This document shows positions 12,865 through 26,519 of a stretch of 36,457 nucleotides of DNA, in pieces. The notes below the pieces were generated by a model that searched no databases, was not told the origin of the DNA, and saw nothing but the letters and a program-made list of their open reading frames with translations. Position 1 is the stretch's first letter. Every line of letters begins with the position of its first letter. This DNA is from a virus: positions 1 through 36,457 of IMG/VR virus record IMGVR_UViG_3300018429_000010; one strand, written 5' to 3'. The position numbers and the translations under genes are program-made.

Positions 12865-13946
12865 GGATGGCGCGCGCCACCGGCGACGGCGAACCCGACG
12901 GATTCTGGATCAAGGTCCACGAACGGATGCCAGAACACCCCAAAATCGCGGGCCTGTCCGACAGGGCCTTCCGGCTACTCATCGAGACCTGGTGCTGGTC
13001 GCGACGCAACAAGACCGACGGTCACGTCAAGGCCGCCGTGTGGGCCAAACGCGGCACCCCGGCGGCGCGGCGCGAGCTGGTCACCGCAGGCCTCGTCGAC
13101 CCCGCCGCGGGCGGCGTCGAGATGCACAACTGGACATTCCGGCAGACCCCCGATGCCGAGCTGACCTCAGGCAGCGCGGATCTGTCGGCCAAGCGCGCCG
13201 AGGCCGGCGCCAAGGGAGGCCGAGCAACCGCAGCAAACCGGGCAGCAAGTGCCGCAGCAATTGGTGCAGCAAACGGACAGCAAACCACCGAGGCAAGCCA
13301 GCAATTGGTGCAGCAAACGGACAGCAAAAGTGCAGCCAGAACTAGAACCAGAACTCCTGTAGTCTCGTCTGGGGTAAAACCCCAGACCGCGCGTACACAC
13401 GTCCAGGCGAGCGCACGCGATAGCGACCCAACCCCCAGCCCGTCAACCCCCGGCCGCCAGCGCGCCGCCGACCTCAACGCCACCGCCCGACGCCCCGACA
13501 CCCAGCGCATCCTCAGCCAGTTCGAAACCGCCCGCGGAACCCAGCTGCTCAGCGACGTGCGACGCACCTACGTCCGGATCGTCGACCAACTCCTCGACGA
13601 GGGCGTCCCCGAACACGAGATCATCGGCGCCCTGCCCGACCTCGCCACCCGCGGCGCCGGCCCCGCCGTCCTGCCGCACCTCATCGAGGAACGCCGCGCC
13701 AAGCAGGCCAGCCGGCCGGTCCACGAACGCCGCCCCGACGAGGTCGCCGACGCCGACCTCACCCCGGCCGTCCTCGACGACCTCCTCGGCCCCGACTCCT
13801 GGATGGGCGACCCACCCCCCGACGCGATCGAACTCGGACCCGCCGAACCGCGCCGCGCCTGGTACGCCGCCCGCCGCGACGAACGCCTCACCGAACGCCG
13901 TACCGAGGCCCGCGCGGTCCTCGCCCGCCGCCAGGTCCCGGCATGA
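12861..13946 (+). CDS. Probable replication initiator or helicase loader
   Basis: About 361 residues. Residues 10-110 look like the winged-helix domain of phage replication proteins: DGFWIKVHERMPEHPKIAGLSDRAF, an ETWCWSRRNKTDGHV segment and an ARRELVTAGLV helix. A basic linker (SAKRAEAGAKGGRA) and a low-complexity Ala/Gln/Thr stretch follow, encoded by an iterated CAGCAA DNA array. The C-terminal part (residues about 205-361) is helical, with VRRTYVRIVDQLLDEGVPEHEII. The stop overlaps the DnaB start, and initiator-then-helicase is a classic order (lambda O-P, DnaD-type loaders). Start is ATG 12861 (ATGA overlap); ATG 12867 is possible. A role in origin recognition is inferred from position and architecture. 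Confidence 0.72.
   Translation: MRMARATGDGEPDGFWIKVHERMPEHPKIAGLSDRAFRLLIETWCWSRRNKTDGHVKAAVWAKRGTPAARRELVTAGLVDPAAGGVEMHNWTFRQTPDAELTSGSADLSAKRAEAGAKGGRATAANRAASAAAIGAANGQQTTEASQQLVQQTDSKSAARTRTRTPVVSSGVKPQTARTHVQASARDSDPTPSPSTPGRQRAADLNATARRPDTQRILSQFETARGTQLLSDVRRTYVRIVDQLLDEGVPEHEIIGALPDLATRGAGPAVLPHLIEERRAKQASRPVHERRPDEVADADLTPAVLDDLLGPDSWMGDPPPDAIELGPAEPRRAWYAARRDERLTERRTEARAVLARRQVPA
13231..13328 (+). repeat. Iteron-like CAGCAA array, candidate replication origin
   Basis: CAGCAA begins at 13231, 13243, 13255, 13267, 13278, 13299, 13311 and 13322, giving steps of 12, 12, 12, 11, 21, 12 and 11 bases, near the DNA helical repeat. Within it a 30-bp sequence occurs exactly twice, at 13255-13284 and 13299-13328. 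The copies are 44 bases apart and so are read in different frames. The region is visibly A-richer than its surroundings and lies in the linker of the initiator gene, as the lambda origin lies inside gene O. Confidence 0.55.
13367..13387. repeat. Perfect inverted repeat inside the initiator gene
   Basis: Nine-base arms (GTCTGGGGT and ACCCCAGAC) separated by AAA, just downstream of the CAGCAA array. It could be a hairpin or a dyad site in the origin. As RNA it would be a strong stem inside the coding region; no T tract follows, so a terminator is unlikely. Confidence 0.6.
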
Positions 13947-16309
13947 CCGCCGTGGCCGACCCCACCGTCGACGACCTCGACGCCGCCCGCGACGGTGTCG
14001 GTGTCGACGCCGAACGCGCCTGCCTCGGCGGCGCCCTGTGGTCCCCGACCGCCATCACCGAGATCGTCGAGATCGTCGACCCCGAGGACTGGTCCCAGCC
14101 CAAACACGCCACCATCGCCGCCGCCATCGCCGCGCTCGCCGACACCGGGCAGGTCATCGAACCCACCTCCGTGCTGGCCGAGCTCGAGCGCCGCGGCGAG
14201 ATGCTCCGCGTCGGCGGCGCCCCCTACCTGCACACCCTCCTCGCGGCGGGCAGCCCCGCGTACCTGCACTACGCCCGGCTCGTCGCCAACCGCGCGCACC
14301 TGCGGCGCATCGCCCAGACCGGGCAGCGCCTGCAGCAGCTCGCCCTCGTCGGCGACATCGACGCCCCCGACGAGGTCCTCGACCGGGCCCGCGCCGACCT
14401 CGACGCCGTCGCCGAACGCCGCCGCGGCCGCGAGCTGTATGCGTTCGCCGACCTGCTCAACGCGGCCGTCGACGGCTACGGCGACCCGATCCCGCCGGGG
14501 CTGGCCACCCCGTGGCCGGACCTCGACGAGATCCTCGGCGGCGGCGGGCTCCGCGCCGGCGCCCTCACCATCGTCGGGGCGAGGCCGGGCGTCGGGAAAG
14601 CGCTCGCGCTGGATACGCCGCTGCCGACGCCCACCGGCTGGACGACCATGGGTGAGGTCCGCGTCGGCGAGCGGGTCCTCGGCGCCGATGGCCGACCCAC
14701 CACGGTGCGTGCCGCCACCGACGTCATGCACGAGCGACCCTGCTACGAGGTGCACTTCTCCGACGGCACGGTGATCGTCGCCGACGCCGACCACCAATGG
14801 CTCACCGAGACCCGGGCCGCTCGTCGCGCTGCAGCCGACGACGCCGCGCCCCGCACGTCGCCCCTGGCCCGCGACCAACGCCACAAGCGCGCCACCCCCG
14901 CCGTGGTCACGACCGAGCACATCGGTGCGACCCTGCGCTGCCCGACGGCGGACGCCCGACTCAATCACGCTGTCGCGGTCACGGAGCCACTGCAACTGAG
15001 CGACGTCGCCCTGCCGATTCACCCCTACGTCCTCGGCGTGTGGCTCGGCGACGGATCGTCCTGGCACGCCAGCCTCACGTGCGCCGACGGCGAGATCCTC
15101 CTCGCCCTCCACGCGGCCGGTCAGCCCACGACCCGCCGCGCCAGCCGGTATTCCTACGGCCTGGCCGGGCTGAACAAGCCGCTCCGCCTCGCCGGGCTGC
15201 TCCAGAACAAGCACATCCCAGCCGCCTACCTCCGCGCCTCCGAAAGCCAACGGCGCGAACTCCTCGCCGGCCTGCTCGACACCGACGGCACCGTCACCAC
15301 GGGCGGCGGTGTCCAGCTCGCGGTCACCAACCAGCGCCTCGCTGAAGGCGCGCTCGAGCTCGTCCTCAGCCTCGGCTACCGGGCGACCATGCGCACCAAG
15401 CGGGTACGCGGCCGCCACGAACACACGTCCACCTGCTACATGCTCAACTTCACCCCCGGCGACAAGGTGTTCAAGCTCAGCCGCAAGACGGCACGGCAGA
15501 CCACCCGGGCACCCGGCGCCCGCAACCGGCGCTACATCACCGACGTCCGTCCCGTCCCGTCCGTGCCGGTCCGGTGCATCGAGGTCGACAACGCCGACCA
15601 CCTGTACCTGGCCAGCCGCGCCATGATCCCCACCCACAACTCCGTGATCGCGGTGAACCTCGCCCGGTACGCCGCGGCCGGTGGCGCCGGCGTGCTGGTC
15701 GCGTCGCTGGAGATGCCGCAGGCCGAGCTCATGGACCGGCTCGTCGCCGCCGAAGGACCCGTCGACTACGGCCGGCTCCGCGACCACAAGCTGACCGAGG
15801 CCGACTGGCAGGCCGTCGACCGCGCCGCCGCCGCCCTGCGCCACCATCCGATCCGGATCGACGACAACCCGAACGCCACCCTGGCGAGCATCCGCGCCGC
15901 CGGCCGCGACATGACCCGCACCCCGACCGGTCTCGGCCTGCTGGTGATCGACTACCTGCAGCTGATCAAGCCGGCCGACTCGCGGCAGCCCCGGCAGGAG
16001 CAGGTCGCGGCCGTGGCGCGCGGCTGCAAGCTGCTGGCCCGCGAGCTGGCGGTCCCGGTCGTGGCGCTGTCCGGCATCAACCGCGGCCCCACCGCCCGCG
16101 CCTCGGCCCGGCCCACGATGGCCGACCTGCGTGAGTCCGGGGAGATCGAGAACTCCGCCGACCAGATCATCCTGCTGCACCGCGACGACGAGAAACGCGG
16201 CGAGATCGAACTCGCAGTCGTGAAGAACCGCGCCGGCCGCACCGGGTCGGTGTCCCTGTCCTGGGCCGGGCACTACCAGCGTGCCGCGTCCCTCTCCCGC
16301 TACGCCTGA
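13943..16309 (+). CDS. dnaB: DnaB-type replicative helicase containing an intein
   Basis: Precursor of 788 residues; after removal of a 347-residue intein the helicase is 441 residues, a normal DnaB length. The N-terminal DnaB domain (residues about 20-125) has ERACLGGALW and HATIAAAIAALADTG; the C-terminal RecA-like motor has Walker A GARPGVGK|S, split by the intein after Lys219, then VASLEMPQAELMDRL, Walker B LLVIDYLQLI, and a late LRESGEIENSADQIILLHR arm. DnaB is the ring helicase that unwinds the fork 5'-3'. The intein sits at the lysine-serine junction of the P-loop, so the helicase cannot work before splicing. ATG 13943 overlaps the initiator stop. A RusA gene follows two genes later. 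Confidence 0.95.
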   Translation: MTAVADPTVDDLDAARDGVGVDAERACLGGALWSPTAITEIVEIVDPEDWSQPKHATIAAAIAALADTGQVIEPTSVLAELERRGEMLRVGGAPYLHTLLAAGSPAYLHYARLVANRAHLRRIAQTGQRLQQLALVGDIDAPDEVLDRARADLDAVAERRRGRELYAFADLLNAAVDGYGDPIPPGLATPWPDLDEILGGGGLRAGALTIVGARPGVGKALALDTPLPTPTGWTTMGEVRVGERVLGADGRPTTVRAATDVMHERPCYEVHFSDGTVIVADADHQWLTETRAARRAAADDAAPRTSPLARDQRHKRATPAVVTTEHIGATLRCPTADARLNHAVAVTEPLQLSDVALPIHPYVLGVWLGDGSSWHASLTCADGEILLALHAAGQPTTRRASRYSYGLAGLNKPLRLAGLLQNKHIPAAYLRASESQRRELLAGLLDTDGTVTTGGGVQLAVTNQRLAEGALELVLSLGYRATMRTKRVRGRHEHTSTCYMLNFTPGDKVFKLSRKTARQTTRAPGARNRRYITDVRPVPSVPVRCIEVDNADHLYLASRAMIPTHNSVIAVNLARYAAAGGAGVLVASLEMPQAELMDRLVAAEGPVDYGRLRDHKLTEADWQAVDRAAAALRHHPIRIDDNPNATLASIRAAGRDMTRTPTGLGLLVIDYLQLIKPADSRQPRQEQVAAVARGCKLLARELAVPVVALSGINRGPTARASARPTMADLRESGEIENSADQIILLHRDDEKRGEIELAVVKNRAGRTGSVSLSWAGHYQRAASLSRYA
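14600..15640 (+). mobile_element. DnaB intein with class 3 features and LAGLIDADG endonuclease
   Basis: The intein covers residues 220-566 of the precursor, from Ala after Walker A lysine to Asn before Ser. Its first residue is alanine, not the usual cysteine or serine. The class 3 triad is present: Trp67 in DHQWLTE (block B), Cys326 in VRCIEVDNADHLYLA (block F) and Thr345 in IPTHN (block G). A homing endonuclease sits between, with both LAGLIDADG motifs: LGVWLGDGS (Asp151) and LLAGLLDTDG. Both motif aspartates are present and the frame is open, so the nuclease may be active. Known class 3 inteins are found in mycobacteriophage DnaB at this P-loop site. Confidence 0.9.
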
Positions 16310-16319
16310 ACGGAGCACC

Positions 16320-16670
16320 ATGCCCAACAACCAGTGGTCCAACCCACCCGTCGACACCCCGCACGACGTCCGACCCGTCGAGCGGGCGCAGGCAACGGCC
16401 GCCCAGCCGACGCGGCCACTGCCGGTGACCATCGACCTCATGCCCAACGGTCAGGGCATCGTCCGCGTCGGCGGCGTCGACATCGGCCCAGCCGTCACGG
16501 GCCTCACGGTCACCAGCCATGGCGGCGGCCGTGGCACCACCGCCACCCTCGACCTGCGGGTCGAACTGCACGCCGCAGTGGATCACTCGCGAATCGCTAT
16601 CCCGGACCACACCCACGCCGCCCTGCTCGAGCTCGGCTGGACGCCGCCCGGCAGTGAGGCCAGCCGATGA
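16320..16670 (+). CDS. Hypothetical protein after DnaB
   Basis: About 116 residues. The start at ATG 16320 has GGAG four bases upstream and lies ten bases after the helicase stop; an earlier in-frame ATG (16281) overlaps DnaB and is not used. The N-terminus is hydrophilic and proline-rich, followed by a beta-rich centre (PVTIDLMPNGQGIVRVGGVDIGP, GLTVTSHGG, ATLDLRVELHA). Function unknown. Confidence 0.65.
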   Translation: MPNNQWSNPPVDTPHDVRPVERAQATAAQPTRPLPVTIDLMPNGQGIVRVGGVDIGPAVTGLTVTSHGGGRGTTATLDLRVELHAAVDHSRIAIPDHTHAALLELGWTPPGSEASR

Positions 16671-17140
16671 CCGCCGCCCTGTTCGACACCCCAGCCGACC
16701 CAGCGCCGCGACCCGAACCCCGTATCGAGCACGTGCTCACCACGTTCGTCGCCGGGAAGCCCGCACCCCAGGGCTCCAAGCGGTACCTCGGCGCCGGGCG
16801 GCCGATGATCGAGTCGTCCAAGGCCGTCGCACCGTGGCGCGCCGACATCCGAACCCACCTGCTCATCGCCCACGACGGGCCACCCCTCGCCGGCGCCGTC
16901 CACCTGGTGCTGGAGTTCGTCCTCCCGCGCCCGACCAGCACACCGAAGCGACGAACCCCGGCCGCGGTGAAGCGCCCCGACCTCGACAAGCTCATCCGGG
17001 CGGTGCTCGACGCCGTCACGTCGGCCGGGGTGTGGCGCGACGACTCGCAGGTCGTGCAGCTCGATGTGCGGAAGCGGATCGCCGAGGCGGACGAGACCAC
17101 CGGGTGCCGCATCGTGATCGCCCAGGAGATCCCGTCGTGA
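16667..17140 (+). CDS. rusA: RusA-family Holliday junction resolvase
   Basis: About 157 residues. RusA enzymes cut four-way DNA junctions as dimers with metal ions and aspartate ligands. The signature is complete: KRPDLDKLIRAVLDAVTSAGV with Asp105 and Asp107 and then WRDDSQV with Asp125-Asp126. The N-terminal GKPAPQGSKRY motif is also typical. It lies after DnaB, fitting a role in resolving replication or recombination intermediates before packaging, together with the RecT system. ATG 16667 overlaps the previous stop. A few extra residues precede the usual N-terminus. Confidence 0.93.
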   Translation: MTAALFDTPADPAPRPEPRIEHVLTTFVAGKPAPQGSKRYLGAGRPMIESSKAVAPWRADIRTHLLIAHDGPPLAGAVHLVLEFVLPRPTSTPKRRTPAAVKRPDLDKLIRAVLDAVTSAGVWRDDSQVVQLDVRKRIAEADETTGCRIVIAQEIPS

Positions 17141-17328
17141 CCACCACGGCCCACGAGTTCACACCCGACCAGATCGAGGCCAGCATCGCGCGGGCCATCC
17201 ACGACCGGGAGCTCGCCGTGGTGCCGAGCCTGATCCGGCTGCTCGCCGTGCAGGCGCCCGACCGCGCGCAGCTGATCATGGACACCATGAAGGTCGGCAT
17301 CGCCATCAACCGGGAGCGGACACCGTGA
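17137..17328 (+). CDS. Small helical protein, unknown
   Basis: About 63 residues from GTG 17137, overlapping the RusA stop. It is mostly helical: FTPDQIEASIARAIHDRELAVVPSLIRLLAVQAPDRAQLIMDTMKVG in outline, ending in a basic INRERTP. The family is common near RusA in actinophages but has no known role. Confidence 0.65.
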   Translation: MTTTAHEFTPDQIEASIARAIHDRELAVVPSLIRLLAVQAPDRAQLIMDTMKVGIAINRERTP

Positions 17329-25548: not shown

Positions 25549-26519
25549 ACCGACCACCGACGCCCGCCATTGACCGCGCCCTCATGGCGTCGGTGTGGCA
25601 GCACCTGCGCAACCGCGACCAGCGCCCCAAGGCCGACCTCCCCGAAGGCCGCGGCCAGCTCCGCGTCACCGACGAAGCCGGTGTCGTCGAGATCTACCTG
25701 TACGACGAGATCGGCTACTGGGGCGTCACCGCCACCGACTTCGTCCAGACCCTGCTCAACATCCAGGCCGTCAAGATCGTGCTGCACATCAACTCGCCGG
25801 GTGGCGAGGTGTGGGACGGGCTCGCGATCTACAACGCCCTGTGCGACCACCCCGCGGCGATCGAGGTCAAGGTCGACGGCATCGCCGCCAGCGCCGCGAG
25901 CTTCATCGCCCAGTGCGGCGACACGGTGGCGATGAACCGCGGCGCCACGATGATGGTCCACGACGCGTCCGGGTACTGCTTCGGCAACGCCGCCGACATG
26001 ACCGAGCACGCGGTGCTCCTCGACCGCACCAGCGACACCATCGCCGGCATCTACGCCGCCCGCGCCGGCGGCACCGTCGACGCCTGGCGCGAGGCCATGC
26101 GCATCGAGTCCTGGTACTCGGCCGCCGAGGCCGTGACGGCCGGTCTGGCCGACACGGCGGTGCCGGAGAAGACGACCGCCCCGGCCGGCGCCCCGGCGGC
26201 CCGGTTCGACCTCGCCCTGACCAGCTTCCACTTCGCCGGCCGGGCCCAAGCGCCGCGGCCGCCGATGCCCGGCCGCGCACCGGCCAACCAGCTACCCGTT
26301 GCGCCCACCGAGGACGGCCCCGGGCCGGCGGCTGGCGCCGAGCCCATCGCCATCCCAGACCCGACGCCGGTAGCACCGGCACCCGCAGACCCGACCCCGG
26401 AACCCACCCCGCCCGCCGCTGCCGCCGGCGACAGCGACCACGAGTTCCAGGTCGACGCATTCCGCGCGGCCCTCAGCACCGCGTTCGCACTCACCACCCA
26501 GAAGGAGGCGGCACTGTGA
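25545..26519 (+). CDS. ClpP-like head maturation protease with scaffold-like tail
   Basis: About 324 residues from GTG 25545. The N-terminal 210 residues are a ClpP/S14-type serine protease: INSPGGEVWDGLAIYNAL, the catalytic serine in GIAASAASFIA (Ser116) and histidine in MMVHDAS (His139). It should cleave scaffold and capsid N-termini inside the prohead. Residues about 215-324 are different, being proline, alanine and acid-rich with a final helix (QVDAFRAALSTAFAL), as in protease-scaffold fusions where the tail acts as internal scaffold. No separate scaffold gene is visible, which supports this. Major capsid protein follows with a four-base overlap. Confidence 0.92.
   Translation: MNRPPTPAIDRALMASVWQHLRNRDQRPKADLPEGRGQLRVTDEAGVVEIYLYDEIGYWGVTATDFVQTLLNIQAVKIVLHINSPGGEVWDGLAIYNALCDHPAAIEVKVDGIAASAASFIAQCGDTVAMNRGATMMVHDASGYCFGNAADMTEHAVLLDRTSDTIAGIYAARAGGTVDAWREAMRIESWYSAAEAVTAGLADTAVPEKTTAPAGAPAARFDLALTSFHFAGRAQAPRPPMPGRAPANQLPVAPTEDGPGPAAGAEPIAIPDPTPVAPAPADPTPEPTPPAAAAGDSDHEFQVDAFRAALSTAFALTTQKEAAL

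Follow-up and report, generated by a model that had tools for sequence, protein, structure and literature searches.

What does a dense run of short direct repeats do in the middle of a phage gene for replication initiation? The question is raised by a viral sequence of 36,457 nucleotides (IMG/VR record IMGVR_UViG_3300018429_000010), the whole of which is called the window here. A preliminary description had likened the repeats to the origin of phage lambda, and a lambda-type origin inside the initiator gene, in a phage apparently of actinobacterial type, is the best-supported reading that sequence comparison suggests. The linker of the phage's own initiator gene very probably holds an origin of theta replication, with iteron binding, unwinding, and DnaB loading taken together as one joint reading. 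The likeness to lambda is supported by the PHROG matches of the initiator, a winged-helix model, helical phasing of the repeats, a weak duplex beside them, the changes seen in the closest relative, and recurrence in other initiator genes.

The gene (12867-13946, plus strand) was recognized as a replication initiator gene from its PHROG matches and its translation of 359 aa. At an E-value of 0.001 the protein (P0001) matches PHROGs 1882, 3926, 2447, 22834, and 27344, of which 3926 and 2447 are annotated as replication initiation protein; it does not match the O-like PHROGs 345 and 678, in a search that remote homology to lambda O could escape. AlphaFold2 models predict an N-terminal winged-helix domain (aa 14-93; 12906-13145, plus strand), with a core whose pLDDT is mostly above 90 and whose elements follow the order helix-strand-helix-helix-strand-strand. 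The structural matches of this N-domain are weak and generic for a winged helix, and they include the N-terminal domain of DnaD and RepA-type plasmid initiators (4pta/4pt7). Judging from the modelled fold, the N-domain is likely the iteron-binding part of the protein. It is followed by an interdomain linker with pLDDT below 50 over aa 158-200, and then by a helical C-terminal part (13434-13943, plus strand), which probably contacts the helicase. Directly downstream on the same strand is a gene for a DnaB-type replicative helicase with an intein (13943-16309; PF03796, PF00772, and PHROG 19, with LAGLIDADG and Hom_end matches in the insert), whose start codon at 13943 overlaps the end of the initiator gene. 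The repeats had been placed just before DnaB, which is correct at the level of genes, although the array stops some 600 bp short of dnaB.

By exact motif positions, the iteron array (13220-13328, plus strand) contains ten GCAA units spaced 8-13 bp apart, eight of which read CAGCAA. All eight CAGCAA units reported earlier are exact, at 13231, 13243, 13255, 13267, 13278, 13299, 13311, and 13322, and two additional GCAA units, one at the 5' end (13224) and one filling a gap (13293), complete a series from 13224 to 13327 with spacings of 9, 12, 12, 12, 11, 13, 8, 12, and 11. In the DNA for the linker of this winged-helix initiator an AGCAA core recurs at 11-12 bp, and the repeats are part of the phage's own initiator ORF. 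Counting both strands, the window holds 22 copies of CAGCAA, compared with 6.95 ± 2.85 in shuffled sequences, and ten GCAA in about 110 bp stand against an expectation of 0.33 and a maximum of three in the other non-overlapping 110-bp bins of the window. The helical phasing is non-random as well: hexamers repeated at lags of 10-12 and 21-24 bp reach their maximum for the window at the array, with 26 per 150 bp (mean 1.1, next best 17). In the hexamer repeat test of initiator loci lambda O passes as a positive control, and TP901-1 rep, whose repeats look longer, failed. Moreover, the array includes the longest exact repeat of the window, 30 bp in length (the runner-up has 27 bp), with copies at 13255-13284 and 13299-13328 on the plus strand, 44 bases from start to start as had been described. 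The offsets of the two copies from the start codon are 388 and 432, which places them in frames 1 and 0 and agrees with the claim that they are read differently, and the GCAA units occupy all three reading frames both in the window and in its closest relative, L004.

The DNA on the 3' side of the array is of low stability. A nearest-neighbour scan has its global maximum there. Across all 36 kb, no 60-bp segment is less stable than 13320-13379, a candidate unwinding element, and no 40-bp segment is less stable than 13340-13379; this easily melted DNA adjoining the iterons is AT-rich in relative terms only, with 48-56% GC. Direct reading reveals three tandem AGAACY hexamers at 13338-13355 (plus strand), where relatives carry a second element in the form of a short tandem array. 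With ten matches at lag 6, a value equalled by 3 of 118 control windows, the AGAACY run is weak on its own, and L004 has no second element of this form. The inverted repeat with 9-base arms noted previously is indeed perfect, with a 3-base loop, and lies at 13367-13387 (GTCTGGGGT-AAA-ACCCCAGAC); as to chance, even with three mismatches allowed it occurs in 4 of 100 whole-window shuffles. It is identical in L004, yet it lies inside a stretch of 98% identity, and because a scan of IMG/VR for the inverted repeat matched the L004 contig alone, the palindrome is not a general part of such loci. Read by eye, a GCGCGC stretch often lies some tens of bases past the tandem array (L012, L016, L021, and L027), and one is present near 13388 in the window.

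A turn of the cumulative GC skew at the array had been suggested as a check, and no such turn was found, the curve going from -744 at 13300 to -1222 at 17300. The skew has little power as a test at this locus, since the neighbouring genes share one strand and coding skew prevails. The missing turn would suit an array that acts as an operator for the replication operon, bound by the initiator or by another phage regulator, with the origin elsewhere; a winged-helix domain could be a repressor, and iteron binding commonly autoregulates too. Nevertheless, this role is very unlikely for an array that lies mid-gene, so far ahead of dnaB and beside the weakest duplex of the window. The lambda origin shows the same pairing of an array with an element of low stability or tandem repeats, and this pairing recurs in initiator genes.

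A nucleotide search against phage records gave no match, and two scans of genome collections with the initiator or its N-domain as query found no relatives. The closest relative, L004, comes from a 54-kb IMG/VR contig. Its identity to the window is mostly 97-100% up to about 12870, where the initiator gene starts, then 72-92% over most of the N-domain and 48-73% over the linker and iterons, and again mostly 95-100% from 13360 to about 14560, including the DNA for the C-terminal part of the initiator. The L004 array has eight GCAA units with spacings of 12, 12, 12, 12, 11, 12, and 11, set in a different context, GGCAARTGCC-like in place of CAGCAA. Domain and array have changed jointly. They have diverged or been swapped together between near-identical flanks, and in this one genome pair the pattern is what an exchanged specificity cassette, consisting of a binding domain and its sites, would look like.

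The spacing of repeats was followed further in 72 non-redundant relatives picked by the N-domain protein alone, using a motif-independent spectrum of the lags between 5-mer repeats after the N-domain. The excess over control is 5.5-fold at lag 11, 5.1-fold at lag 12, 3.1-fold at lag 24, 2.4-fold at lags 22-23, and 1.9-fold at lags 35-36, and lags 9, 15, 18, 21, 27, and 30 are under the control level. Repeat spacing follows the turns of the DNA helix and not the codons, with peaks at 11-12 and 22-24 bp. In addition, L013, L015, L021, L025, L026, and L079 have a short initiator ORF, and their repeats or tandem array reach non-coding DNA; in one of them, Propionibacterium phage B3 (L015), AAGCAA iterons lie across the stop codon, with a CCCGTA array after them. 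The earlier suggestion that selection acts on the DNA more than on the peptide is favoured by these repeats beyond the stop codon, by the non-codon lags of the 72 relatives, and by the joint change in L004.

Across the N-domain family, 100 loci were screened without de-duplication for tandem arrays, defined as 4-7-bp units that give a lag-match run of 14 or more within 300 nt downstream of the N-domain. They occur in 58 of the 100 loci, mostly as (CCCGA)n or (CCCGT)n, and in none of 784 control segments of the same loci. The window has no array of this (CCCGA/T)n type, just the weak AGAACY run. Pentamer arrays of (CCCGA)n, (CCCGT)n, (CCCAA)n, and (CCATT)n abound in the initiator linkers of actinophages (L005, L009, L016, L017, L020, L027, and L028-L107). 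The iteron words of the family vary by lineage and include TGAC, CGATCG, CGAATC, CGAAGC, and AGCAAA, among others. Gp80 of mycobacteriophage Rakim (L008, 2492-3142) is a distant homologue with a related N-domain and a C-terminal part resembling that of the window's initiator, the two being fused with no linker and no repeats. Thus, not every relative keeps an origin at the linker.

Sequence matches also indicate that the CAGCAA repeat recurs in initiator genes of phages with very different hosts. A scan of IMG/VR with the pattern CAGCAA-N5-CAGCAA-N5/6-CAGCAA, which selects on the motif, found CAGCAA at 11-12 bp spacing in at least 120 contigs (kinship is ignored in all scan and locus counts). 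Among the matches listed, in 70 of 120 contigs an ORF of 170-340 aa carries the motif on its coding strand, at residue 80-175; this class of length and position was fixed after the first scan had been seen. A control scan with 14-bp spacing, the sole valid control for the iteron scans, gave 36 contigs and three ORFs in the same class. ACAAGC at 11 bp was tried as a shuffled-motif control and rejected as invalid: it gave 114 contigs, 68 with the motif in an ORF of the class used for CAGCAA, and most of the 114 carry the same iteron written AC-AAGCAA, as roughly three quarters of units have A at each of the two unfixed bases after ACAAGC. The hits at 11-bp spacing lie mainly in replication-initiator genes: at least 55 of the 91 proteins scanned match a DnaD-like helicase-loader PHROG and 26 an O-like one, and the 11 control proteins matched two replication-initiator families with one member each. 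In 55% of 131 such loci a short tandem array, mostly of A-rich 9-bp units, lies no more than 100 nt downstream (controls, 0.45%), and the DNA after the iterons is more AT-rich than the gene average in 94%.

Phages with AGCAA iterons range from 28 to 68% GC, and the AGCAA core is common to initiators with N-domains of different Pfam families. The shared core might point to an origin element bound by a host protein or by a second phage protein in place of the initiator N-domain. This would also fit the weak tracking of N-domain sequence by iteron type (88 loci; Mantel r 0.147, significant though small). A comparison of the predicted recognition helix with iteron type gave no helix-specific signal of covariation. 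However, one common binder would be needed across hosts of 28-68% GC, and from the window to L004 the N-domain and the array have changed as a unit, so that a binder of this kind is highly improbable. Very improbable, too, is that the repeats are a low-complexity A/Q/S-rich peptide linker grown by slippage, in DNA without a role of its own: they do lie in the low-pLDDT interdomain linker (aa 158-200) and a recent 30-bp duplication is visible, but the units of the window, like those of L004, occupy every reading frame, the lags of 11-12 and 22-24 bp are not codon multiples, repeats or arrays pass the stop codon in several relatives, and motif and spacing recur in other initiator families at 28 to 68% GC.

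For an origin in the linker of the initiator gene, we infer binding, unwinding, and helicase loading as follows. The winged-helix N-domain would bind the GCAA iterons, which, at about one helical turn apart, would set the bound initiators on one face of the DNA in an O-some-like complex. This complex would destabilise the weak stretch of duplex (13320-13379), whereupon the C-terminal domain would pass the adjacent phage-encoded DnaB to the opened strand. On the broader proposal that winged-helix phage initiators of widely different hosts share one embedded origin code, iteron plus tandem array, we see the chances as about even. Such a code would have an iteron core of (A/C)AGCAA every 11 bp, in a linker whose peptide rotates through the frames (QQT-SK-PAN, NKQLTSNQQAT), and after the iterons a strand-asymmetric short tandem array, made of A-rich 9-mers in AT-rich phages and of CCCGA/T pentamers in actinophages. 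The tandem array would be an unwinding or single-strand recognition element, with a role like that of DnaA-trios or the DnaD recognition element, the latter being a possible parallel by analogy (PMC10201434). The DnaD-type TnnT single-strand motif (PMC10201434) fits the complementary strand of the window (TTCT three times) and not the CCCGA/T arrays, and it is kept as an idea. A G-quadruplex as the common sense of the tandem arrays was rejected, as (AGAGAC)n, (CCATT)n, and the A-rich 9-mers do not fit.

A theta origin embedded in an initiator gene is an already known kind. Lambda and the Stx phages P27 and 933W have one, with iterons and a melting region (PMC7466680). The lambda origin in gene O resembles the present locus in having iterons between the N- and C-parts of the initiator, then weak duplex, and a helicase-loading gene next (PMC7466680). 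In contrast, lambda iterons are 18 bp long, spaced about 20-24 bp, and accompanied by a truly AT-rich tract, whereas the window has units about 11-12 bp apart and 48-56% GC; moreover, the downstream gene encodes a P-type loader in lambda but DnaB itself in the window. The oriL of Bacillus phage SPP1, in gene 38, likewise has direct repeats inside the initiator gene, bound by gp38, plus an unwinding element (PMC6316719). SPP1 differs in its separate loader, gp39, and its second origin, oriR, and its likeness to the window is one of layout. In mycobacteriophage prophages that persist extrachromosomally, the origin has been suggested to lie within repA or upstream of it, and no repeats were found (PMC7157519). 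The N-domain family of Gordonia, Microbacterium, Streptomyces, Propionibacterium, and mycobacteriophage initiators shares with the window a winged helix and repeats directly after the N-domain, but these actinophage initiators use other iteron words and most have a clear (CCCGA)n or (CCCGT)n, which the window lacks. Iteron plasmids with a winged-helix RepA are similar in their winged-helix domain and helically spaced direct repeats, with the weak fold match to 4pta/4pt7. Plasmid iterons, unlike those of the window, usually lie outside coding sequence and are about 20 bp long.

Our search of the open-access literature turned up no account of either the 11-bp AGCAA iteron class or the CCCGA/T arrays, part of which may be covered by subscription reviews. 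To our knowledge, most sequenced phages lack a mapped origin. With a recognisable iteron and spacing in initiator genes, origins could be predicted from sequence in many phages, and odd repetitive linkers would be explained as origin DNA read in rotating frames. Origin specificity would also become testable by a block swap of N-domain and iterons.

Some other features of the window were observed in passing. The dnaB intein corresponds to 14599-15637 and has LAGLIDADG endonuclease motifs, and the dnaB of L004 is without an intein, the positions equivalent to 14598 and 15638 being contiguous there. An ORF at 16667-17140 resembles by eye a RusA-type Holliday junction resolvase, with AGKPAPQGSKRY near its start. 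The top-scoring tandem repeat of the window is at 26344-26416, outside the replication region, and consists of 2.5 copies of a 30-bp unit.
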